64,000 nucleotides of DNA, from the NCBI RefSeq assembly GCF_029623755.1, contig NZ_CP121106.1:1065001-1129000 (forward strand), read 5' to 3'. The notes beneath the pieces are model-generated. The model did no database searches, was not told where the DNA came from, and worked only from the letters and a program-made list of their open reading frames with translations. The translations under genes were made by a program, and so were the position numbers. Numbering within the stretch: position 1 is the first letter of the stretch; each line of letters starts with the position of its first letter. This stretch comes from Altererythrobacter sp. CAU 1644 (GTDB lineage: Bacteria; Pseudomonadota; Alphaproteobacteria; Sphingomonadales; Sphingomonadaceae). Below are positions 3 through 49,890 of this stretch, piece after piece.

Positions 3-686
3 CCGGCTTTCGCCGCAACCGCATTGATGAACCTGCATGACGATCCCGCCGCTCCCGCGACCCTCACCATGATGGGCGGCCCGATCGATACGCGCGAAAG
101 CCCGACTTCGGTCAACGACCTCGCCATGGAACGCCCGATCGAATGGTTCCGCCAGACGGTGATCGCAACCGTGCCGATGAACCATCGCGGCGCCGGGCGG
201 CGCGTCTACCCGGGCTTCCTGCAACTCGCCGGTTTCATGAGCATGAACCTCGGCAGCCACATGATGAGCCATTACGAGATGTTCAAGCATCTGACCGTGG
301 GCGATGGCGACAGCGCGCAGGCGCACAAGGATTTCTACGACGAGTACCGCAGCGTCTGCGACATGACCGCGGAATTCTACCTCCAGACGGTCGAGGAGGT
401 CTTCCAGAAGCACTCGATCCCCAATGGCGAGTTCCGCCACAAGGGCGAGATCGTCGATCTCGGGGCTATTACCGAGACTGCCCTGCTGGCCGTCGAAGGC
501 GAGCGCGATGATATCTCGGGGCTCGGCCAGACCAAGGCCGCGCTCGATCTCGCTACCGGCCTCTCAAAGAAGAAAAAGCGGTATTACATGGCCGAGGGTG
601 CTGGGCACTACGGCATCTTCAACGGCAGCCGCTGGCGCACCAAGGTCGCCCCGGTGGTCGAGGAATTCATCGCCAAGCACGGTTGA
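3..686 (+). CDS. phaZ: Intracellular polyhydroxybutyrate depolymerase, 3' part only
   Basis: This frame is open to the left edge, so the N-terminus is missing and 227 residues remain. They match the C-terminal half of intracellular PHB depolymerases (PhaZ type), alpha/beta hydrolases that release hydroxybutyrate from storage granules in the cytoplasm. The stretch around VEGERDD supplies the likely acid residue and GAGHYGIF the likely catalytic histidine; the nucleophile would lie upstream of the window. The TTG and ATG codons near position 24 are internal, because coding continues before them. A PHB-synthesis reductase gene (phaB) lies about 29 kb away, so PHB genes are scattered here. Family assignment is firm; substrate is known from the family. 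Confidence 0.88.
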   Translation, partial: PAFAATALMNLHDDPAAPATLTMMGGPIDTRESPTSVNDLAMERPIEWFRQTVIATVPMNHRGAGRRVYPGFLQLAGFMSMNLGSHMMSHYEMFKHLTVGDGDSAQAHKDFYDEYRSVCDMTAEFYLQTVEEVFQKHSIPNGEFRHKGEIVDLGAITETALLAVEGERDDISGLGQTKAALDLATGLSKKKKRYYMAEGAGHYGIFNGSRWRTKVAPVVEEFIAKHG

Positions 687-784
687 TCGGCGGACGGCCG
701 TTCACAAACATTGAGCGCAAGTTCCGGGACGCATCGCGATGCGCCTCTTTATACCCTTTGCCGGTAGCGGAAGGGCAAGCGAGC

Positions 785-1702
785 ATGATCGATATCCGGA
801 TGACCAAGGCGCAATGGGCGATGCTGGTGCTCCTCTCGATGCTCTGGGGAGGCTCGTTTTTCTTCGTCGAAGCGATCCTGGTTGATCTTCCTCCATTGAC
901 GCTTGTGCTGGGCAGGGTCACGATCGCCGCAACCTGCCTATGGGTGTTTCTCCTAGTGACCCGGCGCCCGCTCGCCCTGCAACCGAGAATCTGGCTGGCA
1001 TTCGCAATCATGGGCCTGCTCAACAACCTCATCCCGTTCAGCCTGATCGCCTGGGGTCAGACCGAGATCTCTTCCGGGTTGGCTTCAATCCTCAACGCGA
1101 CGACACCGCTGTTCGCGGTCCTTGTCGCTGCGCTCTGGTTACCGGATGAACGTCCCGGCCCTGCCAAGATCACAGGCGTGGCGATCGGTTTCGTCGGCGT
1201 AGTAGTTCTGATCGGCAGCGACGCTCTCGGCGGATTGGGTGCGAGCACCATGGCGCAGGCAGCAATCCTGCTTGCCGCGATTTCCTATGCTTTCGCGGGG
1301 GCATTCGGCCGGCGGTTTCGCGACTACGGAGTCGACCCGGTGATGGTCGCCGCAGGACAACTCTCTGCGTCGGCGGTCTTCCTCGCTCCGGTCGCCATCC
1401 TGATCGACCGTCCCGGCCAGATGGCGATGCCCGGGATCGCAGCCATGCTGGCGTTGCTCGGACTGGCGCTGTTCTCGACCGCGCTCGCCTACGTCCTCTA
1501 TTTCCGGCTGCTGGCGCAAGCAGGCGCGACCAACCTCCTGCTCGTCACATTCCTCATTCCGGTTTCGGCGATCGCACTCGGCACCACCTTTCTTGCAGAG
1601 CAGCTATCCCCCAACGAGATCACCGGCATGGCAATCATTGCGCTGGGACTGGTCGTACTGGATGGCCGCGCGTGGGAGGCGACCAAGCGGGGGACGGCTT
1701 AG
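785..1702 (+). CDS. EamA/DMT-family transporter
   Basis: A 305-residue integral membrane protein with about ten hydrophobic segments arranged as two EamA repeats, the layout of drug/metabolite exporters in the inner membrane. The substrate cannot be read from sequence. The frame is open further upstream, but the ATG at 785 is preceded at the right distance by GGAAGGG (769-775) and begins just before the first membrane segment, so it is preferred; a second ATG at 800 lacks such a site. Between the phaZ stop and this start lies a 14-bp perfect palindrome, CGCATCGCGATGCG (730-743), which could be an operator or chance. The gene ends 30 nt from the convergent DUF4126 gene. Confidence 0.85.
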   Translation: MIDIRMTKAQWAMLVLLSMLWGGSFFFVEAILVDLPPLTLVLGRVTIAATCLWVFLLVTRRPLALQPRIWLAFAIMGLLNNLIPFSLIAWGQTEISSGLASILNATTPLFAVLVAALWLPDERPGPAKITGVAIGFVGVVVLIGSDALGGLGASTMAQAAILLAAISYAFAGAFGRRFRDYGVDPVMVAAGQLSASAVFLAPVAILIDRPGQMAMPGIAAMLALLGLALFSTALAYVLYFRLLAQAGATNLLLVTFLIPVSAIALGTTFLAEQLSPNEITGMAIIALGLVVLDGRAWEATKRGTA

Positions 1703-1732
1703 CCCTCTATCCGGCAAAAAACAGAAAGGCGG

Positions 1733-2341
1733 CTACGATGCTGGCGGCGGTTCCTTGGGTCGCGGATTGAAGAAGCCGCGGATCAAGCGCCGCAAAGCAA
1801 GAATGAGCCAGATGGTCAGACCCAGCAGGACCAGTGCGATACCGGCCGCGATGTAGGGATATTCGTAGGCCGCCCAGAGTAGGCCCACGGTCGCGACATC
1901 CTCGGCCGTCGAAACCGCGATATTGCTGACCGGTTCAGGGCTGGCATTGACCGCAGCGCGTGTCCCCGCCTTGCCCGCATGCGCGGCGAGGCTTGCCCCG
2001 CCGCCGAGGAGGAAGGCAACCACCTGCATCGCCGGATCGGACGGATCGACAATGGCGAGCGCGAGCAATGCGCCGCCGACCGGGCGGACCAGCGTGTGGA
2101 CCGTGTCCCAAATGCTGTCGAGCCACATCACCTTGTCGGCGAAGAACTCCGCCAGTGCGCCGAGCGCGGCGATACCCATCACCCACGGGTTGGCGAGCAC
2201 GCCCAGCGAAGCGAGGTGTTCGGGGATCGGCAGCGCTTCGAGCCGCATCGCCAGGCCCGTCGCGAAGATGCAGAGATAGAGCCGCCAGCCTGACAGCAGG
2301 CTGACGCTTCCCGCGATCCCGATGATTTCCATGATGCCCAT
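1733..2341 (-). CDS. DUF4126 family membrane protein
   Basis: A 202-residue, strongly hydrophobic protein with roughly five to six membrane segments and a glycine-rich centre (FLLGGGASLAAHAGKAGTR, about residues 110-130), typical of DUF4126 proteins, whose function is unknown. The C-terminus is a short basic-proline tail. The frame is open upstream of 2341, but the ATG at 2341 follows GGAGAGGA at correct spacing and opens directly into the first membrane segment (MGIMEIIGIAG), so it is chosen. It lies 78 nt downstream of the carboxymuconolactone decarboxylase gene on the same strand and may be read through from that operon. Confidence 0.8.
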   Translation of the reverse strand: MGIMEIIGIAGSVSLLSGWRLYLCIFATGLAMRLEALPIPEHLASLGVLANPWVMGIAALGALAEFFADKVMWLDSIWDTVHTLVRPVGGALLALAIVDPSDPAMQVVAFLLGGGASLAAHAGKAGTRAAVNASPEPVSNIAVSTAEDVATVGLLWAAYEYPYIAAGIALVLLGLTIWLILALRRLIRGFFNPRPKEPPPAS

Positions 2342-2419
2342 TGTCGCGTCCTCTCCGCCCGGGAGAATGCGCGCAAATGCCGAAAACGGCAATCCCGCCA
2401 GCTATTTGTAAACTCCAGG

Positions 2420-3004
2420 CTAGCTTGGCGTCAGGTCCGGATCGGCCATGTCGCCCTCCTCGAGCTGCACCCCAAAGCTGTTCAGCATCATCGAAACCTG
2501 GGTGTACTGGCCCACCGTCATCACCAGATCCACGCGCCCCTTAGTACCGAGTTCGGACAGGTCGTCCCAGGTCGCATCGCTGACATGGTGGTCCGTAACG
2601 AGCTCGTCGCAGGCGCGCAGCATCGCGCGCTCGAGCGGAGTCCACCCCTCGGCATCGGGGCCTCGCTTGATTCGCGCCACCTCATCATCGCTGAGGCCGC
2701 AGAGCTTGCCGATCCGCGTATGCTGGGCGAACTCGTAACCCGACCGGCACAGCCAACCCGTGCGCAGGATCACGATCTCGCGTTCGCGTGGCGGCAGGCT
2801 GTTGCGGCGCGACAGGATATAGCTGCCCCAGCCGAGGAAGGCTGCGAGCCCCTTTGGCGCATGGGCGAGCGTGCGAAAGATATTCAGCACCTTGCCGCCC
2901 CCGACCATGTTGTCGGGATTGGTGAGGGGTGCGAGCACAGTCTGCTGCTCCTCGTCGAGCCGATCCATGTCGACCGGCTCGATCCGAGGAGACTTAAGGC
3001 GCAT
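2420..3004 (-). CDS. Carboxymuconolactone decarboxylase (AhpD-like) family protein
   Basis: A 194-residue helical protein of the CMD/AhpD-like superfamily. The core EREIVILRTGWLCRSGYEF followed by a histidine matches the family pattern of a Glu/Cys/His-lined pocket; there is no CxxC pair of true AhpD, so peroxidase activity is doubtful. Members occur in aromatic, terpenoid and steroid catabolic operons as isomerases or decarboxylases of uncertain substrate. Its ATG shares one base with the TGA of the thiolase gene (TGATG at 3006-3002 on this strand), so the two are translationally coupled. It is the last gene of the maoC-thiolase-CMD operon. Confidence 0.82.
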   Translation of the reverse strand: MRLKSPRIEPVDMDRLDEEQQTVLAPLTNPDNMVGGGKVLNIFRTLAHAPKGLAAFLGWGSYILSRRNSLPPREREIVILRTGWLCRSGYEFAQHTRIGKLCGLSDDEVARIKRGPDAEGWTPLERAMLRACDELVTDHHVSDATWDDLSELGTKGRVDLVMTVGQYTQVSMMLNSFGVQLEEGDMADPDLTPS

Positions 3005-4185
3005 CAGAAAATCTCGAACAGGCCCGCTGCACCCATGCCGCCGCCGACGCACATAGTGACGACGCCGTATTTCGCCTTGCGGCGCTGACCTTCGCGCAGG
3101 ATGTGACCGACGCAGCGCGCCCCAGTCATGCCATAGGGGTGGCCGATCGAGATCGAGCCGCCGTTGACGTTGAGCTTGTCGTTGTCGATGCCAAGCTTGT
3201 CGCGGCAATAGAGCACCTGAACCGCGAAGGCCTCGTTGAGCTCCCACAGGTCGATATCGTCGATCGAGAGATCGAAGCGCTTGAGCAGCTTGGGAATGGC
3301 AAAGACCGGGCCGATGCCCATCTCGTCGGGTTCGGTCCCGGCAACCGCCATGCCGATGCAGCGGCCAAGCGGGGTGAGACCCTTCTGAGCGGCAACGGCG
3401 CCTTCCATCACCACCACTGCAGCCGCACCGTCCGACAACTGGCTGGCATTGCCCGCGGTAATCGTGGTGCCTGGGCCGAGCACCGGTTGGAGCGAAGCCA
3501 GGCCTTCGAGCGTGGTCGATGGACGATTGCCCTCGTCCTTGGCGATGGTCACGTCCTGTTCGGAGACTTCGCCGGTCTCCTTGTCCTTGACCATATGCGT
3601 GGTGCTGACCGAGACGATCTCGTCGCCGAACAAGCCCGCTTCCTGCGCGGCAGCCGTGCGCTGCTGCGACTGCAGGCTGTACTCGTCTTGCGCCTCGCGG
3701 CTGATGCCGTAACGCTGCGCAACCGTTTCGGCCGTCTGGAGCATCGGCATGTAGATCGCGCCGTGCATCGCCATCAGCGACTTGTCGGGCATGACGCGCA
3801 TTTCGGGTGTCTGCACGAGGCTGATCGACTCCTGGCCGCCTGCGGCAACCACATCCATCCGGTCCATCACGACCTGCTTCGAAGCGGTCGCGATCGTCAT
3901 GAGGCCCGAGGAGCACTGGCGATCGATCGTCATGCCGCTGGTGGTGATCGGGCAGCCGGCGCGCAAGGCGACCTGGCGCCCGAGATTTCCCGCCTGGGCG
4001 CCCTGCTGGAGCGCTGCACCCCAGATCACGTCATCGACCTCGCCCGCTTCGATGCCGGCCCGCTCGATGGCGGGCGCGAGGGCATAGGAGCCGAGCGTCG
4101 CACCGGGCGTCGAATTGAATGCGCCCTTGTAAGCCTTGCCCATTCCGGTGCGGGCGGTGGAGACGATGACTGCGTCACGTGACAT
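3004..4185 (-). CDS. Acetyl-CoA acetyltransferase (thiolase family)
   Basis: A 393-residue thiolase with all landmark residues: nucleophilic Cys91 in RQCSSG, the NEAF loop, the GHPYG histidine near residue 350 and the C-terminal [10 protein letters not shown] cysteine near 380. It condenses or cleaves acyl-CoA in the cytoplasm. Operon partners are a MaoC-type hydratase and a CMD protein, which suggests beta-oxidation-like catabolism rather than PHB synthesis, although phaA-like activity cannot be excluded. The ATG at 4185 has AAGGA seven bases upstream; an ATG five codons earlier lacks one. The C-terminus is fused by a TGATG overlap to the CMD gene. Confidence 0.92.
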
Positions 4186-4235
4186 GGGGTATTCCTTCAA
4201 ATTGTTTCGAGGGTCCGTATCCCTGGGGAGGGGAT

Positions 4236-4257
4236 GCGCCCGGGCGAGGCCGGGCGC
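4236..4257 (-). other. Intercistronic GC hairpin between maoC and thiolase genes
   Basis: GCGCCCGG (4236-4243) and CCGGGCGC (4250-4257) form a perfect 8-bp stem with a 6-nt loop seven bases after the maoC stop codon. No T-rich tract follows on the minus strand, so a full intrinsic terminator is unlikely. It may instead protect or process the upstream part of the mRNA, or cause partial termination. Confidence 0.55.
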
Positions 4258-4263
4258 CTGGGA

Positions 4264-4713
4264 TCAGACGAAGAACTGCGTGATCCATTCGCAGATCAGT
4301 GCGGGCTTGTCCTCGCCTTCGATCTCGATGGTGATCTCGGCGGTCTGTTGCCACTGGCCGGGGCGCTTCTCGACCATCTCGACGAGCTTCCAGTGGCCGC
4401 GGATACGCTTGCCCGAGCGGACGGGCGAAATGAAGCGCGTCTTGTTGCCACCGTAGTTTACGCCCATCTTCACGCCGTCGATCTTCGGTATGTCGCTGTT
4501 GGCCGAGAGATAGGGGATCATCGAGAGCGTCAGGAAGCCGTGGGCGATCGTTCCGCCGAAGGGCGTCATCTTGGCCGCTTCTTCGTTGATATGGATGAAC
4601 TGGTGGTCGCCGGTCGCATCGGCGAACTGGTTGATGCGGTCCTGGCTCATTTCGACCCACTCGCTGGTGCCGATGTTTTCGCCGGTCTTTGCTGCCAATT
4701 CCTGCGGGGTCAT
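4264..4713 (-). CDS. MaoC-like enoyl-CoA hydratase/dehydratase
   Basis: A 149-residue single hot-dog-fold protein of the MaoC/(R)-hydratase family. The hydratase-2 motif is intact: the segment at residues 32-55 carries the expected Asp36 and His41, followed by the GTIAHGFL sequence. Such enzymes hydrate 2-enoyl-CoA in the cytoplasm, either in beta-oxidation or feeding (R)-3-hydroxyacyl-CoA to PHA synthesis. The start is clear, with AGGAGAGG just upstream. It is the first gene of the operon that continues with thiolase and CMD. A 24-bp palindrome lies 91-114 bp upstream of the start and is a candidate control site. Confidence 0.88.
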   Translation of the reverse strand: MTPQELAAKTGENIGTSEWVEMSQDRINQFADATGDHQFIHINEEAAKMTPFGGTIAHGFLTLSMIPYLSANSDIPKIDGVKMGVNYGGNKTRFISPVRSGKRIRGHWKLVEMVEKRPGQWQQTAEITIEIEGEDKPALICEWITQFFV

Positions 4714-4803
4714 GCGCCTCTCCTAAATCTGTGCGTTCGAAATCGCGCGACTCCGGCGCGCGTTGTCGCGGGACTCATGGCGCATCGGAGCCAAGAGCGC
4801 AAT

Positions 4804-4827
4804 CAAGTTTCCGTTTACGTCAACTTG
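4804..4827. promoter_or_regulatory. 24-bp palindrome between maoC operon and sulfatase gene
   Basis: Arms CAAGTTnnCGT and ACGnnAACTTG are perfectly inverted across a 2-bp centre. The inner 16 bp (4808-4823) resemble the TTTACGT/AACGTAAA-type boxes bound by MerR-family regulators of acyl-CoA and branched-chain catabolism (LiuR-like). On the minus strand it contains TTGACG, a good -35 element facing the maoC operon, though no clear -10 follows. Binding partner is inferred, not shown. Confidence 0.5.
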
Positions 4828-4957
4828 CCGTTACGGCTTGGCGGGCTTGGGAAAGCTTCAATTTCGGCCCTACTTGCGCGTGACCGTGCATTAACCGCCG
4901 CCCGCTATGGCTGACGCGGGCGCATTCGCGATATTGGGCGGTGTGAGGGAAGGGGCG

Positions 4958-6937
4958 ATGCTCGCAGGATTGTTCGACCGATCGCTGAGGCCGCGGCTCG
5001 CGGTTCCGCTGGTTGTGCTGGCGGTAAGTGCGGCCGAACTGCTAGTTGCAGACCGCAAATACGGGGTGTTCACGGGCGGGTTCGGCCAGTCGCAGGCGGT
5101 CGACACCCCATCCGAACTGGCGATCTTTGCGATCGGCTACGTCCTCTCGCAGCTGGCGGCGGCCCTCCTGGCATGGGTTATCGCCAAGTGGATTGCCCGC
5201 GATTCAGGTTCGTCCGTCACGGTCGTGCATTTTGCCTTTCTCTATGGCGGGCTGAGCCTGATCGCGCTCAATGTTCAATACCAGCTCCATTCCTATTTCA
5301 GCGATGCCGTAAGCTTCGCCTTGCTCAAGCAATTGGGCGGAGGCAGCGCGACCGACGCGCTGTTGTTCGCCAAGAACGAGATCGCGCTGGGCCTGGGTGC
5401 GGTAGCAATCGTGATTGCGCTGTGGTGGGGGCTCGCCAGGCTGGTGCGGCGTATTGCGACGGCGGGTGACCGCGCGCCCGCCGGTCCGCTGCGCAAGCGG
5501 CATGTGGGTCTGGCCTGGGCCGCCTTCCTCGCCGCGCTCTTCATCGTCCCGCAATTCGGTGGCGACGCGACCAAGGGGCTGGGCCGGATGCTGGTCTGGC
5601 AGGGTGCCTCCTCCGCGCTCGCCGCGACCACCGATTTCGATGGCGATGGCTATGGCCTTGCGGGCAGGAGCATCGACACCCACCCCTTCGACGGCGCGCG
5701 CCATCCGCTGGCGCTCGACATTCCGGGCAATGGCGTGGACGAGGACGGCTATGGCGGCGACCTCGAGCTGGTGCCGGTGCCGGCCCCGCTACCGCTGACG
5801 CCGGTAGCAGGCGACCAACCGCACGTCGTGATCGTGATCCTCGAAAGCACCCGCTGGGACGCGATCGGCAAACGCATCGACCGCAAGCCGGTCGCGCCGA
5901 ACCTCGAAGCCGTGGTGGCCCAGGGCGGCGCAATAGTCCCGAGTTTCAGCCATATCGGGTTTACCACCGGCTCGCTGAAATCGATCTTTGCTGGAGCGAT
6001 CGAGGTCGCACCGGGCGCGCCCAGCCTGTTTCGCGAGCTCAAGCAGAGCGGCTACGGCATCTCCGTCTTCTCCGGCCAGCCAGAGGATTTCGGCGGCATC
6101 TCGGAAGCGGTCGGAATGCGCGAATTGGCCGATCGCTTCGTGGATGCCGAAGCGCTCAAGGAGCAGCGCGCCTTCAGCTTCGCAGCGCAAGGCTCACTGC
6201 TGGTCGACGAAGCGGTCGTGACCGGCGAGTTCGCCAAGGCGCTGGGCGAGAAGAGCCAGTGGGCCAAACCCCAGTTCGTCTATCTCAACTTCCAGTCGCC
6301 GCACTTCCCCTACCATCATCCCGGCGTTCCCGAACGCTTCGCGCATCCGCCGATCGAACGCGGCGAGATCGGCGCCGAGAATGCGGAGCGCGTGCGGCTG
6401 ACCTATTGGAACGCGGTGGCGCATGCGGATGCCGCCCTCGGCCAGATCGTCGATCAGTTGAAGGAGCTGGGGCAGTGGGACAACACCATCCTGCTGGTCA
6501 GCGGCGATCATGGCGAAGCGCTGTTCGAGGAGGGTTTCCTGGGCCATGGACACATGATCGACCGCCTGCAGTACGGCACCTTCCTCGCCAGCAATCGCCC
6601 GCTCGACCAGGTCACCGCGCCCATCGCGATCAGCGACTACCGCCGCATCCTGCATGGCCTGCTCGGCGCCAAACTGCCTTCCGCCCGGCAGTTTGCCCCC
6701 TTCATGCATGTTGGAACGCTCGATGAGCCGACCGCGATCGGCATGACTGACCAGCACCACGGAATTGTCTCGCTCCGCTTCGACCGCGAAGAGGCCTGCT
6801 TCGAGGCAAGCCGAAGCTGCACCCGCTATGGCGCGCTCAAGGGCGAGAAACGCTCGGCCGTCGATGCGCTGGTGGCGCGATGGGGCTCGGAACGGTGGGC
6901 TGCGCGCCAGCGCCTCCGCGAGGGCGCCGCTCAGTAA
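4958..6937 (+). CDS. Membrane-anchored sulfatase/alkaline-phosphatase-fold transferase
   Basis: A 659-residue protein with about five N-terminal membrane segments (to roughly residue 210) and a periplasmic sulfatase-type domain (about 290-590), the architecture of LtaS/phosphoglycerol and phosphoethanolamine transferases. Seen: VILEST near 294 (metal-binding Glu), the nucleophile region FTTGSL with Thr336/Thr337, SGDHGE near 515 and GHGH near 530. There is Thr rather than Cys/Ser at the nucleophile, arguing for a phospho-transferase. Between the two parts lie DFDGDGYG (226-233) and GNGVDEDGYGGD (257-268), resembling MopE-type metal-binding motifs without cysteines. Start 4958 has GAGGGAAGGGG just upstream; an in-frame ATG at 4907 has none. 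Its last 101 bp overlap the convergent ligase gene. Confidence 0.8.
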   Translation: MLAGLFDRSLRPRLAVPLVVLAVSAAELLVADRKYGVFTGGFGQSQAVDTPSELAIFAIGYVLSQLAAALLAWVIAKWIARDSGSSVTVVHFAFLYGGLSLIALNVQYQLHSYFSDAVSFALLKQLGGGSATDALLFAKNEIALGLGAVAIVIALWWGLARLVRRIATAGDRAPAGPLRKRHVGLAWAAFLAALFIVPQFGGDATKGLGRMLVWQGASSALAATTDFDGDGYGLAGRSIDTHPFDGARHPLALDIPGNGVDEDGYGGDLELVPVPAPLPLTPVAGDQPHVVIVILESTRWDAIGKRIDRKPVAPNLEAVVAQGGAIVPSFSHIGFTTGSLKSIFAGAIEVAPGAPSLFRELKQSGYGISVFSGQPEDFGGISEAVGMRELADRFVDAEALKEQRAFSFAAQGSLLVDEAVVTGEFAKALGEKSQWAKPQFVYLNFQSPHFPYHHPGVPERFAHPPIERGEIGAENAERVRLTYWNAVAHADAALGQIVDQLKELGQWDNTILLVSGDHGEALFEEGFLGHGHMIDRLQYGTFLASNRPLDQVTAPIAISDYRRILHGLLGAKLPSARQFAPFMHVGTLDEPTAIGMTDQHHGIVSLRFDREEACFEASRSCTRYGALKGEKRSAVDALVARWGSERWAARQRLREGAAQ

Positions 6938-8258
6938 TCGGCACCTTTTCCGGCGTCTCGATCCGCTTGAGGTAGTTCCACAGCCCGATCTGCAGGCCAA
7001 GCAACATCAGGATGAAGGGCTGGTAGGCAATGCCCTGGAACAGCGAACCGACAAGATAGATTATCTGCGCCATCTGGAGTGCGGCAGCGAACGGCGCCTG
7101 CCACTGGTTACCCTCCCCGACCCGGTCCTTCCAGCGTCGCCGGATCTTCTCCATGTGGATGATCCCCAGTGCATGCAGCCACAGCCACAGGATCAGGCCG
7201 GGCCAGCCCTGCTCGCCGAGCATTTCGAAGATCGCCGAATGATAGGCGCGCCCTTCATCGACAACCTCGCGGTTTTCGATCAGCTGGGTGTTCCCCTGCA
7301 CCTCGACGACCGGCATGTCGTAGGCGAACTTGTTTCCGCGATAGGCGTCGAACCCGCCGCCAAGCGGGCGCTCCTCGGCGAACTCGATGGTCCATTCCCA
7401 CACGGCGAGGCGGGTCGAGGCCGACTGGTCTCCCTGGTGCCCGGTGATCGTCGCCATGCGCTCGTAATAGCTTTGCGGGAGGAACGGCAGGGCTGCCAGG
7501 CCAAGGGTCGCCCCGGCAATCATGTAGAGCACGCGCTGCTTGACGTCGCGCAGCATCAGCAGGCCGAGCGCGGCGATGCACAGCAGTCCGGTGCGCGCCT
7601 CGGTCCCGATCGGGATCAGCAGGCTGGCGAAGATCAGCGCATAGGCGAAGGTCTTGACCCGCCAGTCGGGCGGAAAGATCGAGCCGAAGCGCACGAACCA
7701 CAGGATCACCGGGATCATGGCAATGGCGACGGTCGCCAGTGTCGAGCTCTCGTAGATGCCGCTGTTGTTGTTCACGAACAGGTAGAGCCCGCCATAGCCG
7801 CCCCCACCAAGCACAGTCTTGATGCCCGCGCTGACCACGATAGTCGCCACCGTCAGCGTCATGACCAGCGCCAGCCCCTCGATCCTCAGTCGCGTCGTCA
7901 GGGTCAGCGGCAGGAAGATCGCGAACACCAACGCCTTCCACACCCACTCCCATTTCTCGAGCGCTTCAATCGGGAAATCCGCCCGCGAAGTGGTCCAGGC
8001 ACAATATGCCAGCAGAGCCAGCATCAGCGCCTGGCGCAGCGAAAAGCGTGCACCCTTCTTCCCGTCCAGAAGAAGCCAGCCGCCAAACGCCGCGACAAAG
8101 GCAATCAGCGAGACCGGGACCGACTGGATGATGCCGTAACCGATCTTCTGCGGCGCAAGGATGTCGATATAGGCATAGGCCAGCACCCAGAAAAACGGGC
8201 GCTTCAGTCCGAGCACCAACACGAAGCCGATGAAGGCAAGGAAAACGAGATCGATCAT
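6837..8258 (-). CDS. O-antigen ligase-like protein, exosortase A system-associated
   Basis: A 473-residue polytopic membrane protein with 10-12 hydrophobic segments. The N-terminal LKRPFFWVLAYAYIDILAP and the later YESSTLA and GTEARTG stretches match the putative O-glycosylation ligase family found beside exosortase A (XrtA) and PEP-CTERM loci (TIGR03097 type, recognised from memory). It would transfer or ligate lipid-linked glycan at the periplasmic face. A large soluble loop, rich in acidic residues, lies around residues 270-340. The ATG overlaps the stop of the upstream small gene by ATGA, so translation is coupled. The final ~33 residues (Pro/Arg-rich) lie entirely over the 3' end of the sulfatase gene on the other strand. 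Confidence 0.85.
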   Translation of the reverse strand: MIDLVFLAFIGFVLVLGLKRPFFWVLAYAYIDILAPQKIGYGIIQSVPVSLIAFVAAFGGWLLLDGKKGARFSLRQALMLALLAYCAWTTSRADFPIEALEKWEWVWKALVFAIFLPLTLTTRLRIEGLALVMTLTVATIVVSAGIKTVLGGGGYGGLYLFVNNNSGIYESSTLATVAIAMIPVILWFVRFGSIFPPDWRVKTFAYALIFASLLIPIGTEARTGLLCIAALGLLMLRDVKQRVLYMIAGATLGLAALPFLPQSYYERMATITGHQGDQSASTRLAVWEWTIEFAEERPLGGGFDAYRGNKFAYDMPVVEVQGNTQLIENREVVDEGRAYHSAIFEMLGEQGWPGLILWLWLHALGIIHMEKIRRRWKDRVGEGNQWQAPFAAALQMAQIIYLVGSLFQGIAYQPFILMLLGLQIGLWNYLKRIETPEKVPITERRPRGGAGAQPTVPSPIAPPAHRRPSVSRP

Positions 8259-8500
8259 CGCCTGACCCGGTTTCCCGAGCGATAACGGCGCGGCTCGTCC
8301 GGCTCGGCAACGGGGGCCGTCGTCGGTTCCGGTGCCAGCACTTCCTCGTCCAACTCGTCGCGCGCCATCAGCCGCAGCAGCGCGACGATCAGAAGTCCGT
8401 GGCCAAGGGCAAGGGCGAAATAATCGATCAAGCGCCGCTTCCGTTTCGTGATCCATGGCGAGCGCACAATGCGCCCATCGTGATTCCCGCCTAGCAGCAT
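8255..8500 (-). CDS. Small single-pass membrane protein coupled to the ligase
   Basis: An 81-residue protein with a basic N-terminus (ITKRKRR), one hydrophobic helix (YFALALGHGLLIVALLRLM, about residues 27-45) and an acidic, proline-rich tail ending in basic residues. No known family was recognised. Its TGA overlaps the ligase ATG by 4 nt, which strongly suggests it is translated and works with it. The start is uncertain: ATG at 8500 lacks a clear ribosome-binding site, and a GTG around 8467 is an alternative. The gene is divergent from the glycosyltransferase 46 bp away. Confidence 0.55.
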   Translation of the reverse strand: MLLGGNHDGRIVRSPWITKRKRRLIDYFALALGHGLLIVALLRLMARDELDEEVLAPEPTTAPVAEPDEPRRYRSGNRVRR

Positions 8501-8546
8501 GCAGTTGACGGCCCGTTAAGCACATTCGTGGCAAAGGAAGGTCGCC

Positions 8547-9773
8547 ATGCGCATCTTGCACGTCCTCGACCACTCGCTCCCGCTCCACAGCGGCTATACC
8601 TTTCGCACACGTGCGATCCTCAAGAGCCAGCAGGCCGCAGGCCTCGAGGTGCGCGGCGTCACGGGCCCGCGCCAGCTCGGCGACGGCCCACCAGTCGAGG
8701 AAGTCGACGGGCTGCTGTTCCACCGTACTGCCGGGACTGCCGAGGGCCCCGCCGGCCTGCGCGAATGGCGCGAGATTGCCGCTTTCGCAGAGGGGATCGA
8801 GCGGGTCGTCACGGACTGGCGCCCTGACGTCATCCATGCCCATTCACCCGCTCTATGTGGCGCCGCCGCACACAAGGTGGCGCGCAAGCACAATATCCCG
8901 CTGGTCTACGAGATCCGCGCCTTCTGGGAAGACGCGTCGGTCGGCAACGGCACCGGACGCGAAGGATCGATCAAGTATCGGCTTACCAGGGCGCTGGAGA
9001 ATCGGGTCGTAGCCAGTGCCGATGCCGTTTTCACCATTTGCCACGGACTTCGCGACGACCTGATCGCGCGGGGCTTCAATCCGGGAAAGATCGGCATCTC
9101 ACCCAACGGCGTCGACATGGCGCTGTTCGGGGAGCCGGCGCCGCGCGACGACGCGCTGGCAGCCGAGCTTGGCATCGCGCCAGACGAGCCGGTGATCGGC
9201 TACATCGGCAGCTTCTACGATTACGAAGGGCTCGACGATCTCATCGCGGCGATGCCGCTGCTGCGCGCGGAACACCCGGGCGCCCGACTGCTGATGACCG
9301 GTGGAGGTCCGATGGAGGCTGCGTTGCGCGCGCAGGTTGCGGCCCTGTCCGATCCCGAAGCCGTGATCTTCACCGGACGCGTCCCGCATTCGGAGGTCGA
9401 GCGCTATTACTCGCTGATCGACATACTGGCCTACCCTCGCAAGAGAAGCCGCCTGACCGATCTCGTCACTCCGCTGAAGCCGCTTGAGGCAATGGCCCAG
9501 CAGCGGCTGGTCGCCGCGAGCGACGTCGGCGGTCATCGCGAACTCATCACCGATGGTGCGACCGGCACGCTGTTCCCGGCCGACGATCCCGAAGGCTGCG
9601 CCGATGCGCTCGGCGACCTCATCCGTCACCGGCACGAATGGGACGCAATCAAGCAGCGTGCGTTGGCGCATGTCCGCACGCGGCACGACTGGGCCAAGAA
9701 CGTCGAGCGTTATCTGCTCGTTTACCATGAACTGCTAGGCAATCGGACAAGCGGCGACAGGCAGGCAGCCTGA
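8547..9773 (+). CDS. GT4 glycosyltransferase, exosortase A system-associated
   Basis: A 408-residue cytoplasmic GT-B glycosyltransferase of the GT4 family. The N-terminal MRILHVLDHSLPLHSGYTFR is characteristic of the exosortase-A-associated glycosyltransferases (TIGR04063 type). Later landmarks are HAHSPALCG near 105, SPNGVD near 190, GYIGSFYDYEGLDDL near 220, and the donor-binding KPLEAMAQ region near 311-318. It probably adds a sugar during synthesis of the exopolysaccharide made by XrtA loci. GGAAGG sits just before the ATG. With the divergent ligase and the remote polyprenyl-phosphate sugar transferase it implies an exopolysaccharide pathway whose other genes lie outside the window. Confidence 0.87.
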   Translation: MRILHVLDHSLPLHSGYTFRTRAILKSQQAAGLEVRGVTGPRQLGDGPPVEEVDGLLFHRTAGTAEGPAGLREWREIAAFAEGIERVVTDWRPDVIHAHSPALCGAAAHKVARKHNIPLVYEIRAFWEDASVGNGTGREGSIKYRLTRALENRVVASADAVFTICHGLRDDLIARGFNPGKIGISPNGVDMALFGEPAPRDDALAAELGIAPDEPVIGYIGSFYDYEGLDDLIAAMPLLRAEHPGARLLMTGGGPMEAALRAQVAALSDPEAVIFTGRVPHSEVERYYSLIDILAYPRKRSRLTDLVTPLKPLEAMAQQRLVAASDVGGHRELITDGATGTLFPADDPEGCADALGDLIRHRHEWDAIKQRALAHVRTRHDWAKNVERYLLVYHELLGNRTSGDRQAA

Positions 9774-9809
9774 AGCCGGACGACCGAACGCAGGAAACAG
9801 GTGTATTTC

Positions 9810-10847
9810 ATGGCTTTGGGCCGCAGGACAACCGCAACACCGCGCCAGCCGCTCGCTGCGCATCCCGCCTTTGCCGCGATCCTGTGCCTGTGGGTCGCAG
9901 CTCTGTTTGGCCTCGCCGTAATGGTCCTGCCAGGCGCCATGCTGGAGGGGTTGGTTGCACGAAGCGGTCTTGCCGCCGTGCTCCCCGCAGCCGAACCTCC
10001 GCTCGGCAGCACTGCCCGATTTCTGGTCGCAGCAGCCGCGGCAGTATTCGGCGGAGTGGCCGGATTCATGATCGCCCGGCTGCTGGCACGCCTCACCGCC
10101 CGCAAGGCCAGGGTTGCAGTAGAGAATGTCGCAGATCCCGAGATTGAGGATCCAGTCTTCGCACCGGAAATCGACAGCGAAGAAGAGGACCCGTTCCCCT
10201 TCGACATCGACCCCGACATGCTCGATGATGAAATCGAAGAACCGGCGATCGCCGAAATTTCGGTAGAACCCAGCGAACCGGCCATCCTTACAATCGAGGA
10301 ACTCGATCAGGCCGGGCTCGACCGAGCTGTCGCCAAGGACGAGGCGCAGGATTGGGACTTCGAACAAGCAAGCCACGATCCAGAGGATTTCAGGCCCGAT
10401 GTGGGCGCATGGGGTCTTGAGGAAGAGGTTGAAGACTTCGAACCCACGCCCGAGCCTGCGCCGCTTGCTCATGCTCCTTCGCCCCACTCGGTGGCTCCAC
10501 AAGCGCCTGCGCCCGATGCCCGCGATGGGCTCGGCAGGCTTCGCTCGCGCAGGCTCGAGGAATTGAGCCTTGCGGAAATGGTCGAAAGGTTCGGCGGTGC
10601 GCTCTCCGAACACCGTGACGCCATCGAGCGCGACCCGGCGCTGCGCAACGAGGTCCAGCCCGTGATCGCAGCCGCGCTCAAGGCCCTGACCGGTCACGAA
10701 CGGGCAAAGCGCGCGGCGCCCACTCAGTACCAGGCGACCCAGGGAAATGCCGCGCTCGACATCTCGACGCGCGAGCAGGCCGAGGCCACTGAAGAAGCCC
10801 TGCGCGAGGCGCTGGAGAAGCTCCAGCGCATGAGCGGCAACTTCTGA
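9810..10847 (+). CDS. Two-helix membrane protein with long acidic domain, unknown function
   Basis: A 345-residue protein not recognised as a named family. Residues about 20-45 and 68-92 are two membrane segments, followed by RLTARKARV. Residues about 105-210 are strongly acidic and proline-containing (e.g. EEDPFPFDIDPDMLDDEIEEP), likely disordered. The C-terminal part (about 240-345) is charged and helical, with a coiled-coil-like end (TEEALREALEKLQRM). The arrangement suggests an inner-membrane scaffold with a cytoplasmic tail. An in-frame GTG at 9801 has AGGAA five bases upstream and is an alternative start. It begins 36 bp after the glycosyltransferase and could be co-transcribed with it. 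Confidence 0.7.
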   Translation: MALGRRTTATPRQPLAAHPAFAAILCLWVAALFGLAVMVLPGAMLEGLVARSGLAAVLPAAEPPLGSTARFLVAAAAAVFGGVAGFMIARLLARLTARKARVAVENVADPEIEDPVFAPEIDSEEEDPFPFDIDPDMLDDEIEEPAIAEISVEPSEPAILTIEELDQAGLDRAVAKDEAQDWDFEQASHDPEDFRPDVGAWGLEEEVEDFEPTPEPAPLAHAPSPHSVAPQAPAPDARDGLGRLRSRRLEELSLAEMVERFGGALSEHRDAIERDPALRNEVQPVIAAALKALTGHERAKRAAPTQYQATQGNAALDISTREQAEATEEALREALEKLQRMSGNF

Positions 10848-10893
10848 TCCGACGCTACGGCAGCCGGCGACAGAGGCCAAATTTGCGCGGCAA

Positions 10894-10914
10894 GGCTAAA
10901 GTCGGCCTTTAGCC
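10894..10914 (+). terminator. Hairpin in the gap before gltB
   Basis: GGCTAAAG and CTTTAGCC form a perfect 8-bp stem with a TCGGC loop, 46 bp after the acidic membrane protein gene and about 170 bp before gltB. No T-tract follows, so it may be a weak or factor-assisted terminator, or part of the gltB leader. Confidence 0.4.
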
Positions 10915-11082
10915 GGGGCAATCGAATTCACTTCCCTTCGCAGTTGCAAAAACACGTTCATTTCTTCAAGAAGTTCCTTCGCGACATTTTCGAAGCCCTG
11001 ATGCGGGGCGAATCGCGCTTCATTGCCCACTGGCCGCTCCGGCGAGCAGGGCAGGATGCAGCGACGATGGGATGGAGATTGA

Positions 11083-15744
<4,662 letters not shown>

Positions 15745-15756
15745 GGGTCAGAAGGT

Positions 15757-17193
<1,437 letters not shown>

Positions 17194-17404
17194 GTCGGGG
17201 ACCTCTCCAGCTTGTCGCGTTTGTACAATTCGCGAAGTTTTCGCTGATTCATAACGAATTAGTTGGGACCAGAATGGATGTATTCCGGCATTTCGCGTTG
17301 CTGCGAATTGTCGCGCATGCTTCCATTCCGCCCGATAGAAAAATGCACAAGACCCGGCCCCCGCAACCTGCGGACCGACCGGGCGGGACGGGGGTCGCGA
17401 CATC

Positions 17405-18679
17405 GTGATAGCCAGATGCAGGCGGGAATTGCTGTCCAAGGCGCGCTTGCTGGCGGGAACCTCGGTTCTTCTCCTGGCCTTGTCGGGCCCGCTTGCCGCG
17501 CAGGGCGCCGATGCCGCTTCTGCAGAAGAACCACAGGAAGCTGGGGCGGCGATCGCTCCTGTTGCACCGGTAGCCCAACCGGACCCCGGTCCAATCGCGG
17601 CCCGGCTGGTCGTCTCTCAGTTCGTCGATCGACCTATCTCTGGCGATGCGGAAAAAACGCTCCGCTACAGCGGCAGGGCGGATGCCTATGTCGACATCGG
17701 CGGTAGCAGCTTTGGTGCAGACGACAGCCTCACCCTGACAATCCGCCCGGAGTTCACTTGGGGCAAGGATTCGAACGGCACCATCGGTCTGATCCCCAAT
17801 AACACGGCGCTGTTTCGGGGCGAGGGCCGGGAAGATTTCGATCTGTCGGTCAGCATCTCCAAGCGCTGGAATTCGGGCGCCAAGCTGATCGTCGGTAAGG
17901 TCAACGTGCTCGACCAGGGCGGCAGGCTCCCGGTGGTCGGCAGCGACGGCCATTATGGCTTCCAGAACCTCTCGATGGCGCTGCCGCCTTCCGCGATCAT
18001 CCCCAACACGATTACGGGCGCGCTCCTCGAAGTGCCAACCGAGAAGGTGCTCTATCGGCTGTGGGTGTTCGATCCCGATTCGCAATATGGACGCAGCGGT
18101 TTCGAGACCGCCTTCGGCAGCGGAGTCGGCTTTCTTGGTTCGGTCACCTTCCCGGTCAAGATTGGGGGCAAGCCGGGCTATTATGCGCTCAAGCTCTCCG
18201 GCTCGACCCGCAACGACATCAACGCCGATTCGCTGCCGGCGGTGCTGATCCCTGCGCCTGGATCGGGCTTCGGCACCGATCGCGGCGAGTTTGCCGCCGT
18301 GCTGGCCGGCTACCAGTATCTCGGCGTCTATCCCGAGGCGCCCGGCAAGGGCTGGGGCATCTTCGGGCAGGTCTACCTCTCGAAGGGCGACCCGACCTTC
18401 CTCGACAAGAGCGGATTCATCGGCATTTCGGGCAATCCGCGGGCTCGGCCGCAGGACCGGTTCGGCCTCGCCTGGTTCCGCTACTCGCTGACCGACGGCC
18501 TGGTCGATGCTCTCGCGAACCGCATTCCGCTCGAAGACGAGGAAGGAGTCGAGGCTTTCTACACACTCGGGATTGGCGAGCACCTCCAGCTCACCGCCGA
18601 TGTTCAGCTCGTCGATAGCGCCATCGCGCCGCGCGATACTGGCGTGATTGCCGGGCTGCGACTTACGGCAGCGTTCTAG
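17405..18679 (+). CDS. Carbohydrate-selective porin, OprB family
   Basis: A 424-residue exported outer-membrane protein. An N-terminal signal peptide ends near ...SGPLAAQGADA (about residue 35), followed by a low-complexity Ala/Pro/Glu linker and a beta-rich barrel with many aromatic turns. The C-terminus GLRLTAAF ends in Phe, as expected for the Bam signal. The family takes up sugars or other small solutes by diffusion. The start codon is GTG with a G-rich stretch upstream; exact start is moderately certain. The 211-bp gap before it has no convincing promoter but contains a GAATGG/TGTATTCC element at 17272-17286. Its TAG overlaps the stop of the convergent phosphatase within one CTAG. Confidence 0.8.
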   Translation: MIARCRRELLSKARLLAGTSVLLLALSGPLAAQGADAASAEEPQEAGAAIAPVAPVAQPDPGPIAARLVVSQFVDRPISGDAEKTLRYSGRADAYVDIGGSSFGADDSLTLTIRPEFTWGKDSNGTIGLIPNNTALFRGEGREDFDLSVSISKRWNSGAKLIVGKVNVLDQGGRLPVVGSDGHYGFQNLSMALPPSAIIPNTITGALLEVPTEKVLYRLWVFDPDSQYGRSGFETAFGSGVGFLGSVTFPVKIGGKPGYYALKLSGSTRNDINADSLPAVLIPAPGSGFGTDRGEFAAVLAGYQYLGVYPEAPGKGWGIFGQVYLSKGDPTFLDKSGFIGISGNPRARPQDRFGLAWFRYSLTDGLVDALANRIPLEDEEGVEAFYTLGIGEHLQLTADVQLVDSAIAPRDTGVIAGLRLTAAF

Positions 18680-19500
18680 GCGCCCGGGTTCTCCGCCTCG
18701 GCAGCACAGATTTCATCAACGGGCGCTGGAGCAAGGCTTGCCGCTTCCTCACGCGCTGCTGCGTAGTCCGCCTGGAAATCGGGATTGGACTGGAGCCGGG
18801 CGAAGGTCGCGCCGGCAAAGGCCTGCGATTCCACCGTGTCGCTGTACCAGTGGACATTGCAGACCCAACGGCTGTTGGCATAGCCGCGCCCGCGCTTCGC
18901 CAGTTCGGCAGCGCGGTCGGGCAACAGGCTTGCCAGCACCAACGCCGTCCCATAGCCGATTGCGCTGTGGCCGGAAGGATAGGATCCGTTGCCGCGCAGC
19001 GCTTCTTCCTCCTGCGGAGTGCAGCTCGTCGAGCCATTGACCGTGAACGGTCGCGGTCGCTTGAACACGTCTTTCACCGCGCCGGTCGACATGCCGAAAT
19101 CCGTTCCGGCACGGCGCAGGAGATTGGCGATCCTGGGCGTCGCCTCCGGAGATATCCTGACCCCTGCGGCGCAAGAGAAGGCACGCCCGTACCAGTTCTC
19201 ACCCAGGTCGGCGTCGCGCGCAGCCTGCTCCCAGCGCGGCGATCCACGTAGCGACAGGGACCGGGCATTGGCCTCCTCGTCGATCGTCATGCGCGTGCTG
19301 CCAGCTTCGGGTGGCGGATGGATGAGGCTTTCCCCGCCGGAAAGCGGGCCGCCGATATAGGGCCGACCGAGATCGTACCTGGGTGCCTCCGCCTGGGCTG
19401 CGGCTTCCTTGGCCATGGGCGCGTCCGCGACCTGTGGGACCACGACGCATGCGGCGAGGACCAGTCCTCCAGCCAAGGCCAATGTTGCCGATTTGCGCAT
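18676..19500 (-). CDS. Class A (PAP2-type) acid phosphatase, lipoprotein
   Basis: A 274-residue exported phosphatase of the PAP2 superfamily, closest in layout to PhoN/class A acid phosphatases. The three-part signature is complete: KDVFKRPRPF, GSYPSGH and SRWVCNVHWYSD, giving the nucleophilic and acid-base histidines. The N-terminus MRKSATLALAGGLVLAAC ends in a lipobox cysteine, so it is probably an anchored periplasmic lipoprotein. Start 19500 follows GGGAGGAAGCG; open frame further upstream is not used. It would dephosphorylate diverse organic phosphates. It is tail-to-tail with the porin gene, sharing the tetranucleotide CTAG. Confidence 0.86.
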   Translation of the reverse strand: MRKSATLALAGGLVLAACVVVPQVADAPMAKEAAAQAEAPRYDLGRPYIGGPLSGGESLIHPPPEAGSTRMTIDEEANARSLSLRGSPRWEQAARDADLGENWYGRAFSCAAGVRISPEATPRIANLLRRAGTDFGMSTGAVKDVFKRPRPFTVNGSTSCTPQEEEALRGNGSYPSGHSAIGYGTALVLASLLPDRAAELAKRGRGYANSRWVCNVHWYSDTVESQAFAGATFARLQSNPDFQADYAAAREEAASLAPAPVDEICAAEAENPGA

Positions 19501-19522
19501 CGCTTCCTCCCTCGACGCCTGC

Positions 19523-19855
19523 CTAGATGCCGCTGGCGCATTTGACGCAGCGTGGCACGCCGGGGTCGTTACGCAAGCGCTTTTCGGCGATCTCCTCACC
19601 GCAGGAGAGGCAATAGCCCCATTCGCCCTCGTCGATCCTCGCCAGCGCCGCCAAGATCCGTTGCCTTTCGGCCTGACGCCTGCGCTCTGTAGCCTGCGCC
19701 ATCGCTTGCTGCTGCAGCGCGTCCATTCGGCTCAACCGCCCGACACTGTCCTGCTGCAATTCGACCGTATCGCGCGCGTCTGCATTGGCCGCATCCTCGC
19801 GCTCGATCTGCGCAAGACGCGTTGTCAGCAAATCTTTCGCCTCGTCCTCGGTCAT
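19523..19855 (-). CDS. TraR/DksA-type zinc finger protein
   Basis: A 110-residue DksA/TraR family protein with an N-terminal helical hairpin (about 1-70) and a four-cysteine zinc finger, CLSC and CVKC separated by 17 residues (about 82-106). It is shorter than classical DksA (~150). Such proteins bind in the RNA polymerase secondary channel or act in stress responses; whether it responds to ppGpp is unknown. The acidic tip residues of the coiled coil cannot be assigned with confidence. The ATG at 19855 lies 10 bp after the uracil-DNA glycosylase stop, so the two are probably co-transcribed. Confidence 0.82.
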   Translation of the reverse strand: MTEDEAKDLLTTRLAQIEREDAANADARDTVELQQDSVGRLSRMDALQQQAMAQATERRRQAERQRILAALARIDEGEWGYCLSCGEEIAEKRLRNDPGVPRCVKCASGI

Positions 19856-19865
19856 TGCGATGAGC

Positions 19866-20582
19866 TTACCAGTCGATCGGCGCGCGTCCATGCCGTTCGA
19901 GAAAGGCGTTGGCCTGGCTGAAAGGGCGTGAACCGAAAAAGCCGGCATGCGCCGAGAGCGGGCTTGGATGCGGGCTGGTCAGCACGAGGTGATGGTCCCC
20001 TGCACCCAACCCCTTGACCCGGCTGGCTTTTTTCTTGGCATGGCTGCCCCACAGAATGAACACCGCGGGATCGCCGCGATCCACCACAGCCTGCACACAG
20101 GCATCGGTGATCGCATCCCAACCGCGCCCCGCATGGCTGCCGGCCTGCCCAGCCTCCACGGTGAGCGTGTTGTTGAGCAACAGCACGCCCTGCCGCGCCC
20201 AATGCTCGAGGTTGCCGTTCTCGCGCCGCGCTACCCCGAGATCGCTTTCGAGTTCCTTGTAGATATTGACCAGCGAGGGCGGCACCTTCACCCCATCCCG
20301 CACCGAAAAGGCGAGCCCATGCGCCTGTCCCGGCCCGTGATACGGGTCTTGGCCCAGGATCACGACCCTGACCTGATCGAGCGGCGTGAGCGCCAGCGCA
20401 TTTAGCCGCTCGCCACGCGGCGGATAGACCGTCCGACCGGCATCCTCCTGTTTTCGCAGCCACCCGCCCAGCTTGCGCGCCTCGGGCGCGGCAAGCACCG
20501 GCTCGATCGCCTCACGCCAGCTTTCGGGGACCTGATCCGCGCTCATACCAGCCTGATACGCGGCGCGTCCTTCACTCGCCAC
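19866..20582 (-). CDS. ung: Uracil-DNA glycosylase, family 1
   Basis: A 238-residue enzyme that removes uracil from DNA to start base-excision repair. Motif A GQDPYHGPGQAHG (catalytic Asp, about 77-89) and motif B HPSPLSAH (about 204-211) are intact, with the FILWG and NNTLT segments in place. The GTG at 20582 has GGAAGGGG immediately upstream; an ATG 12 codons later (20546) has a weaker site but would suit the family length too. It is divergent from the RNase D-like gene, with 45 bp between starts. It likely forms an operon with the DksA-like gene. Confidence 0.95.
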   Translation of the reverse strand: MASEGRAAYQAGMSADQVPESWREAIEPVLAAPEARKLGGWLRKQEDAGRTVYPPRGERLNALALTPLDQVRVVILGQDPYHGPGQAHGLAFSVRDGVKVPPSLVNIYKELESDLGVARRENGNLEHWARQGVLLLNNTLTVEAGQAGSHAGRGWDAITDACVQAVVDRGDPAVFILWGSHAKKKASRVKGLGAGDHHLVLTSPHPSPLSAHAGFFGSRPFSQANAFLERHGRAPIDW

Positions 20583-49362: not shown

Positions 49363-49498
49363 CGCACTCTCTAAACGTCTCTTTGCCGGGCGCCTTGGCA
49401 CAAGCGCGGGCGCACCGGAAGGGCGGTGTCGATCAAACTTCGATTTTTCGGGAGGCCGACACCAGCGCCACCCGAAACCGGGTGGCTGGTGACTGCCG
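49363..49498 (-). promoter_or_regulatory. Candidate threonine attenuator, structured thrS leader
   Basis: Between the leader peptide stop and thrS, RNA segments can pair in exclusive ways. Segment B (49479-49491) pairs with C (49460-49474) as 7 plus 6 bp with a 2-nt bulge and a GTTT loop. Segment A, in the last codons of the leader frame (49510-49516), can pair instead with B. C can also pair with D (49425-49431) through a perfect 7-bp match, and 49471-49477 can pair with 49446-49452. No clean T-tract follows any stem, so the output may be Rho-dependent termination or control of thrS translation. Confidence 0.6.
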
Positions 49499-49570
49499 CT
49501 AAGCCGCGATCACCCGCCCCCGGATATCCGAGGTGGTAGTGGTCGTCGTAGTGGTCAGAGCCAAAGCCAT
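49499..49570 (-). CDS. thrS leader peptide with eight consecutive threonine codons
   Basis: A 23-residue frame: MALAL, then eight Thr (codons ACC ACT ACG ACG ACC ACT ACC ACC, 49555-49532), then [10 protein letters not shown] and TAG. A run of eight Thr codons directly before a threonyl-tRNA synthetase gene is the classic design of a ribosome-mediated attenuator. The predicted transcription start falls about on this ATG, implying a leaderless AUG; an in-frame ATG three codons earlier (49579) overlaps the -10 element. No ribosome-binding site is seen, in keeping with leaderless initiation. Confidence 0.75.
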
Positions 49571-49576
49571 GCCGGC

Positions 49577-49605
49577 CATATAGCGACGCTATCTTGCGAT
49601 GTCAT
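49577..49605 (-). promoter_or_regulatory. Sigma70-like promoter of the thrS leader
   Basis: On the minus strand ATGACA (49605-49600) and TATATG (49582-49577) are 17 bp apart, matching the consensus at 5 and 4 of 6 bases. Transcription would begin near 49570, on the leader peptide AUG. Confidence 0.6.
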
Positions 49606-49710: not shown

Positions 49711-49890
49711 ATGACTGGCAACTGGAAAGCGCTCGCTTGGGCAGCGCTCATCATCGGGGCGGCCCTGCTGGCCAAGGCGCAGGGGCTGAGCGACGCAGCG
49801 AGCTTCGGCATTGTCGCAGGTCTTTCGGGCGCCGCAGTCGGATCGCTGCGCAGCCGGGTCGGCGGCTGCATCAAGGCTATCGGGCAATGA
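49711..49890 (+). CDS. Small two-helix membrane protein
   Basis: A 59-residue protein with two hydrophobic segments (LAWAALIIGAALLAKA and FGIVAGLSGAAVGSL) joined by a short loop and ending with a basic/Gly-rich tail. GGAG precedes the ATG at good distance. Its TGA overlaps the next gene by ATGA. No family recognised. It is the first gene of a three-gene operon ending in an XRE regulator, so a sensing or assembly role with the larger membrane protein is an inference. Confidence 0.65.
   Translation: MTGNWKALAWAALIIGAALLAKAQGLSDAASFGIVAGLSGAAVGSLRSRVGGCIKAIGQ

Follow-up and report, generated by a model that had tools for sequence, protein, structure and literature searches.

In bacteria, the genes for aminoacyl-tRNA synthetases are controlled through T-boxes, protein binding and leader peptides. 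The question raised by the present locus, which lies in a 64,000-nucleotide stretch of the Altererythrobacter sp. CAU 1644 genome (the window), is whether a short threonine-rich frame upstream of thrS is part of such a control element, and by what route thrS expression would respond to it. As the conserved RNA ahead of thrS starts with this Thr-rich frame and then offers competing hairpins, it is probably a sensor of threonine supply.

The threonine-rich leader frame

Reading of the minus strand from the ATG at 49570 confirmed the 23-residue frame with eight Thr codons in a row that had been described in the original prediction. The frame starts 208 nt upstream of thrS and ends with a stop codon at 49501-49499 (Table 1), while a mechanically generated ORF list places its start 9 nt further upstream, at an ATG within the -10 box. 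Eight consecutive ACN codons occur at a single site in the 3.24 Mb genome, within the leader, and since the reversed control pattern also gives one match, the Thr run by itself is not proof; the 12-base pattern used in the first search matched at two further places in the genome. On the plus strand, a divergent ORF of 59 aa lies opposite the thrS leader (window 49711-49890) and has no Pfam match.

Table 1. Features of the thrS leader region, in window coordinates.
Feature	Position	Strand	Evidence
thrS, threonyl-tRNA synthetase, 667 aa	47359..49362	-	Pfam TGS, tRNA_SAD, tRNA-synt_2b, HGTP_anticodon
thrL leader ORF (name proposed here), 23 codons and stop	49499..49570	-	Sequence; homologues
Eight consecutive Thr codons	49532..49555	-	Sequence; coding signature
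P1 -35 element, ATGACA	49600..49605	-	Sequence; TTGAC-like box at the same distance in 127 leaders
P1 -10 element, TATATG	49577..49582	-	Sequence; conserved spacing in 127 leaders
Segment 1, partner of segment 2, overlaps last Thr codons	49528..49536	-	Covariation, compensatory events
Segment 2, RGR codons (taken to be A of the original prediction)	49514..49523	-	CGG and GGG codon counts; covariation, compensatory events
Segment 3 (B of the original prediction)	49478..49488	-	Covariation, compensatory events
Segment 4 (C of the original prediction)	49467..49477	-	Covariation, compensatory events, hairpin energies
Segment 5, GGUGUC, pairs with segment 6	49458..49463	-	Covariation, compensatory events
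Segment 5b, CCUCCCGAAA (D of the original prediction), pairs with segment 4	49446..49455	-	Covariation, compensatory events
Segment 6, GACACC	49425..49430	-	Covariation, compensatory events
P2 -35-like element, TTCCGG	49415..49420	-	Promoter-like pair score
P2 -10-like element, CAAGGC, 17 nt spacing	49392..49397	-	Promoter-like pair score

An alignment of 61 leaders (A1) was obtained from 63 picked sequences after removal of a false pick (L023) and of a leader with a deletion (L028). L098 and L103 were dropped as exact duplicates. Note—a leader position p is obtained by subtracting the coordinate from 49571. Thr is encoded at p28, p31 and p34 in 59, 59 and 61 of the 61 leaders, with third-base entropies of 1.38, 1.34 and 1.36 bits against 0 to 0.21 bits at the first and second bases. 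These varying third bases rule out that RNA constraint alone explains the Thr run at the three codons, and comparison of the leaders shows the frame to be coding and Thr-specific. The last Thr codon (37) is constrained in both ways, as it is ACC in 58 of 61 leaders and forms part of segment 1. The RGR stretch shows the reverse of the Thr pattern, its two Arg codons being CGG in 55 and 59 of 61 leaders with a nearly invariant third base, which suggests RNA constraint; the intervening Gly codon (GGG in 49 of 61, third base 0.89 bits) is more variable than the Arg codons.

Across 127 unique leaders, the frame is 21-27 codons long (23 codons in 83 of them) and contains 4 to 13 Thr residues, encoded by ACC (517), ACT (185), ACG (177) and ACA (46). 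In the 61 aligned leaders, the peptide varies outside its Thr run and segment 2. As in a leader-peptide attenuator, a short ORF carries consecutive codons for the very amino acid that the product of the downstream gene loads onto its tRNA. In the leader set aside for its deletion (L028), the ORF is retained 119 nt upstream of thrS and the region of segments 3 to 6 is missing, which is possibly a natural loss-of-switch variant or an artefact of MAG assembly.

Distribution of the element and evolution of its helices

A covariance model built from 50 of the 61 leaders (A2) matched 100 of 297 Sphingomonadales genomes, a strictly filtered sample of genomes at least 90% complete, with one copy per genome. 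All 100 positive genomes fall in one family (f1), in 22 of 77 genera. In every one of them, thrS lies downstream on the same strand (87 read from the locus sequence, 13 taken from coordinates), and in the 87 loci its distance from the start of the model match is 183-236 nt or 711-725 nt. The ORF scan detected a Thr leader in 97 of the 100 genomes, 92 of which have it less than 300 nt and five more than 600 nt from thrS, and inspection by eye of the other three found seven (L187), six (L205) and three (L191) Thr codons in a row. The presence of the Thr run in these matches is partly circular, because the Thr codons are inside the model; the position before thrS is not. This comparison shows that the element belongs to thrS, and a chance Thr run is ruled out by the matches before thrS together with the coding signature.

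A homologous leader is present in only 44 of 80 named thrS loci, which we counted against the reading as a switch. Among these 80 loci, the leader was seen in Erythrobacter, Qipengyuania, Tsuneonella and Porphyrobacter, and in part of the Croceicoccus, Novosphingobium and Aurantiacibacter loci, while ORF scans of the thrS loci of Sphingomonas soli, Sphingopyxis flava, Sphingorhabdus and Stakelama revealed no leader. At the level of the class, 7 of 387 genomes matched the model, four of them in the same family and three weakly. The weak matches (L146-L148, E 5e-5 to 5e-4) lie outside the order, no thrS was found in their loci, and they were not counted; one of them, L148, has a Thr-rich short ORF ending in MTKTTTTTKTTASAGRSLVRAG at position 1483-1575.

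The original prediction described three mutually exclusive stems (A:B, B:C and C:D) and gave no segment coordinates; they are taken to be helices 2:3, 3:4 and 4:5b, and helices 1:2 and 5:6 were absent from that description. Through their common segments, 1:2 excludes 2:3, 2:3 excludes 3:4, and 3:4 excludes 4:5b. A pseudoknot could arise from 4:5b together with 5:6. Folded by itself, the leader sequence of this genome does not stand out (z -1.25, with 20 of 200 shuffles folding equally well), so the stems are not proven by one genome alone, and it is the comparative data that prove them. In A1, the share of paired cells is 92.7% for the set 1:2, 3:4 and 5:6, 92.5% for 4:5b and 85.6% for 2:3; slid controls reach at most 59.1%, 78.9% and 65.3%, respectively. 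In none of the three tests did any of 500 shuffles attain the observed number of paired cells, number of double-changed cells or covariation score. For the number of pairs with a double change, the observed value was attained by 7 shuffles for the set, 93 for 4:5b and 272 for 2:3, so that this measure is weak for the latter two; the number of pair types was reached by 196, 0 and 219 shuffles, respectively. Strong pair changes include p88-p101 (GC in 33 leaders, AU in 18), p110-p144 (CG in 38, UA in 21) and p97-p122 (CG in 42, GC in 9).

In an initial covariation test, for which the tree null was crude, the null maximum was not surpassed by any pair, which counts against the helices; the later compensatory counts use a tree from thrS itself. 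On the thrS tree of 61 leaders, 4 compensatory events were counted for 1:2, 2 for 2:3, 5 for 3:4, 9 for 4:5b and 17 for 5:6, against 1, 0, 1, 1 and 3 in the best of eight slid controls. Helix 2:3, with its two events, is the weakest. With 126 leaders, the counts were 11 for 1:2, 7 for 2:3, 13 for 3:4 and 13 for 4:5b (controls at most 3, 3, 1 and 4); helix 5:6 is misaligned in this larger alignment, with 3 events at slide 0 and 4 at slide -1. Among all 8001 pairs of the 126-leader alignment, 14 have at least five events, and 12 of those 14 lie outside the helices. Mean hairpin energies were -8.5 kcal/mol for 1:2, -10.2 for 2:3, -12.4 for 3:4, -7.4 for 4:5b and -4.1 for 5:6, making 3:4 the strongest single hairpin on average, and when the helices were forced, the ensemble with 3:4 and 5:6 was the more stable in 42 of 58 leaders. 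In total, comparison shows that these helices, which are exclusive, overlap or follow the ORF and are backed by covariation (most weakly for 2:3), have been maintained in evolution. The comparison across relatives that the original prediction had proposed thereby lends it support, as the 61 leaders show conservation and covariation of both the Thr run and the paired segments, and the three stems described there all have compensatory events above slid controls.

Predicted promoters, output and the proposed switch

The P1 elements are separated by 17 nt, and the -10 element ends 6 nt before A49570, the first base of the leader AUG. Because of this spacing, a leaderless transcript with its +1 at the A of the AUG is predicted. 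Over the 127 leaders, the TTGAC-like box near -35 keeps a constant distance to the AUG, and the -10 region shows T at 13 nt before the AUG in 62% and A at 12 nt in 58%, with a one-base smear. The spacing is supportive rather than independent proof, as the choice of AUG slightly favored A at -11. A generic promoter scan reported no site at P1, which it missed because it demands T at the last -10 position. The promoter proposed originally, with its start on the AUG, agrees with the spacing in the sequence and with the distance conserved among the leaders.

A second promoter-like pair, P2, lies just before thrS, with its -35 element 4 nt after the end of segment 6, and had been overlooked in the first reading. 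A P2-like score of at least 11 out of 12 was found for 93 of 126 thrS genes with the leader and 25 of 47 without it, where 0.6 would be expected in each group, although these counts are optimistic because the score was devised after viewing the same sequences. The occurrence of the pair in about half of the thrS genes that lack the leader suggests an element independent of the switch. Transcription of thrS therefore probably starts as well from a promoter of its own, which lies beyond the switch and does not depend on the leader. A transcription start downstream of 49532 had originally been named as evidence against the switch; an additional start there is expected from P2, so it would not speak against it. 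Of the original interpretation, the conserved and covarying Thr run and pairing and the conserved P1 spacing stand, and the downstream start as a counter-test does not.

An intrinsic terminator with a U tract was looked for as the output and not found. Among 119 leaders, the mean highest T count per 8 nt was 4.16 against 4.46 in shuffles; five or more T within 8 nt occur in 34 leaders, and five T in succession in four. The window leader has a hairpin and no terminator-like site, so that the missing U tract remarked upon originally holds for the window sequence and, in the sense that no U tract is conserved, for the 119 leaders. Its absence is here only weakly informative, because canonical U-tract terminators are not enriched in window positions 1-20000 (11 found, 12.6 expected from shuffles).

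It is likely, in our assessment, that the element is a ribosome-sensed RNA switch of the leader-peptide attenuator type that controls thrS. P1 would make a leaderless transcript that begins at the AUG of the 23-codon Thr-rich leader. With ample Thr-tRNA, the ribosome would reach the stop codon and cover segment 2; then, or after ribosome release when 1:2 forms, hairpin 3:4 and stem 5:6 would form, and little P1 transcript would get to thrS. When Thr-tRNA is short, the ribosome would pause in the Thr run and cover segment 1, so that segment 2 could pair with 3, the freed segment 4 with 5b, and the P1 transcript could extend into thrS, while P2 would supply basal thrS expression regardless. Were the ribosome to stall as early as the first Thr codons, however, segment 1 would stay exposed, and this would count against the switch. 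We infer the ribosome pause, the direction of the response and the activity of P2; that starvation would raise thrS expression is suggested by the geometry and by known attenuators. The most likely output would be premature transcription end at a hairpin that has no U tract, perhaps requiring Rho. Possible, though doubtful, is that the element represents a new class of switch, in which at least five alternative helices rather than an intrinsic terminator govern read-through from an add-on promoter and a basal promoter is kept.

The lack of a conserved U tract would also suit translational attenuation, in which the hairpins hide or free the ribosome binding site on the P1 transcript and transcription does not end. 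For thrS itself, the predicted accessibility of this site in 58 leaders was 0.56 with 3:4 and 5:6 forced and 0.48 with 2:3 and 4:5b forced; because the effect is small and of opposite sign, it gives no support to translational switching of thrS in the direction expected. In addition, the switch ends (segment 6) 62 nt before the thrS AUG in the window, with P2 in between. The geometry differs in seven loci (L011, L027, L084, L100, L138, L151 and L166), in which 704-735 nt separate the leader from thrS. There the switch is followed first by a gene for a protein of 161-168 aa that begins MRY[YF]IDTEF and only then by thrS, a point against the main reading. In all seven, this gene starts 86-90 nt after the leader stop, which places its ribosome binding site roughly just behind segment 6; since the switch abuts the gene start, a translational output could operate there. 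The L011 protein has no Pfam match. Pairing of segment 5b with the Shine-Dalgarno box was looked for by eye in L011, L027 and L084, appeared plausible in L011 only and was dropped. Overall, we regard translational attenuation as improbable.

Still less probable is an action in trans of the leader RNA or its peptide, as known for Sinorhizobium rnTrpL and peTrpL, in which case the switch would mainly make a small RNA, even though excerpts of PMC7298713 describe a leaderless alphaproteobacterial trpL that yields a trans-acting sRNA and peptide, and P2 could feed thrS independently of the leader transcript. That the element sits ahead of thrS in all 100 genomes matched by the model argues for control in cis, and the peptide's variability outside the Thr run and segment 2 also argues against action in trans. 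E. coli thrS is autoregulated by ThrRS through a tRNA-like operator, and control of that kind here, with the Thr frame incidental, is very improbable: the conserved stretch like CUUGUGCCAU ahead of thrS, which could be read as an operator, is also found in loci lacking the leader (e.g., L008, L016 and L062) and is compatible with a -10 region at a spacing of 17 nt, and the Thr run has a coding signature.

As controls within the same genome, short-ORF lists covering about 500-700 nt upstream of pheS, ilvB and trpE contained no clear leaders. Upstream of one leuA gene (L213, G000:C1:2654468-2656117, minus strand), a leaderless-looking Leu-rich ORF, MTIEIGLLLRLTRPWA, is followed by a hairpin without a U tract, and 12 other leuA loci of the same genus have similar leaders (LRL..RPW[AG] followed by CCCAAGGG or a near variant). 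The leuA leader of these genomes may share the U-less output.

Comparison with known systems

A search with the covariance models of 4227 Rfam families, T-box included, gave no match in the window at the gathering score; Rfam also includes the enterobacterial threonine operon leader. In pheST attenuators, the terminator is followed by poly-U. If the proposed switch is real, thrS of Alphaproteobacteria would be under the control of a leader peptide that is phylogenetically conserved. The original prediction regarded such control of thrS as undescribed for this group, and this stands insofar as nothing on a thrS leader in Alphaproteobacteria was found in the open-licence literature, while in another phylum, according to excerpts of PMC8079986, a Streptomyces lividans thrS leader peptide with two Thr codons has been proposed as a candidate. 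This candidate is the closest counterpart known. In those excerpts, the S. lividans thrL resembles the present element as a leaderless short ORF before thrS, with a hairpin and no uridine-rich stretch, and differs as an 18 aa frame with two Thr, described in one strain with one hairpin and without comparative support. Here there are 4-13 Thr residues, 100 genomes and five helices with compensatory changes. PMC2965389 mentions threonyl-tRNA synthetase once, for self-regulation in E. coli, and thrS does not appear in it.

Within the Alphaproteobacteria, the Sinorhizobium meliloti trpL portrayed in parts of PMC7298713 and PMC10117765 likewise has a leaderless ORF whose AUG is the 5' end of the transcript, but it concerns Trp and trpE and has a described transcription terminator. 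In PMC10117765, a leader peptide is also given as a possibility upstream of a gene in the threonine and lysine pathway. The actinobacterial LEU element before leuA combines a leader peptide with alternative structures, and the cys leaders have a leader peptide and no obvious terminator (both from excerpts of PMC1262725). The genes concerned differ from thrS, and the base stem of LEU includes the Shine-Dalgarno box (same excerpts), whereas none was seen in that position in the thrS leader. For actinobacterial leaders that have no terminators, the excerpts of PMC1262725 discuss Rho as a possible output, so the question of attenuation without an intrinsic terminator is already open there; because no U tract is conserved across the family, the present element offers a system for studying it. 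Related as well are the attenuators of pheST in gammaproteobacteria and of leuS and trpS in Streptomyces, which share a leader peptide containing the cognate residue and competing hairpins (PMC1262725, in excerpt). The leuS attenuators of that source have a terminator and then poly-U where the thrS leaders have no conserved U tract, and, compared with all three, the thrS leader adds a further layer, 4:5b/5:6, and has a promoter-like pair downstream of the switch.
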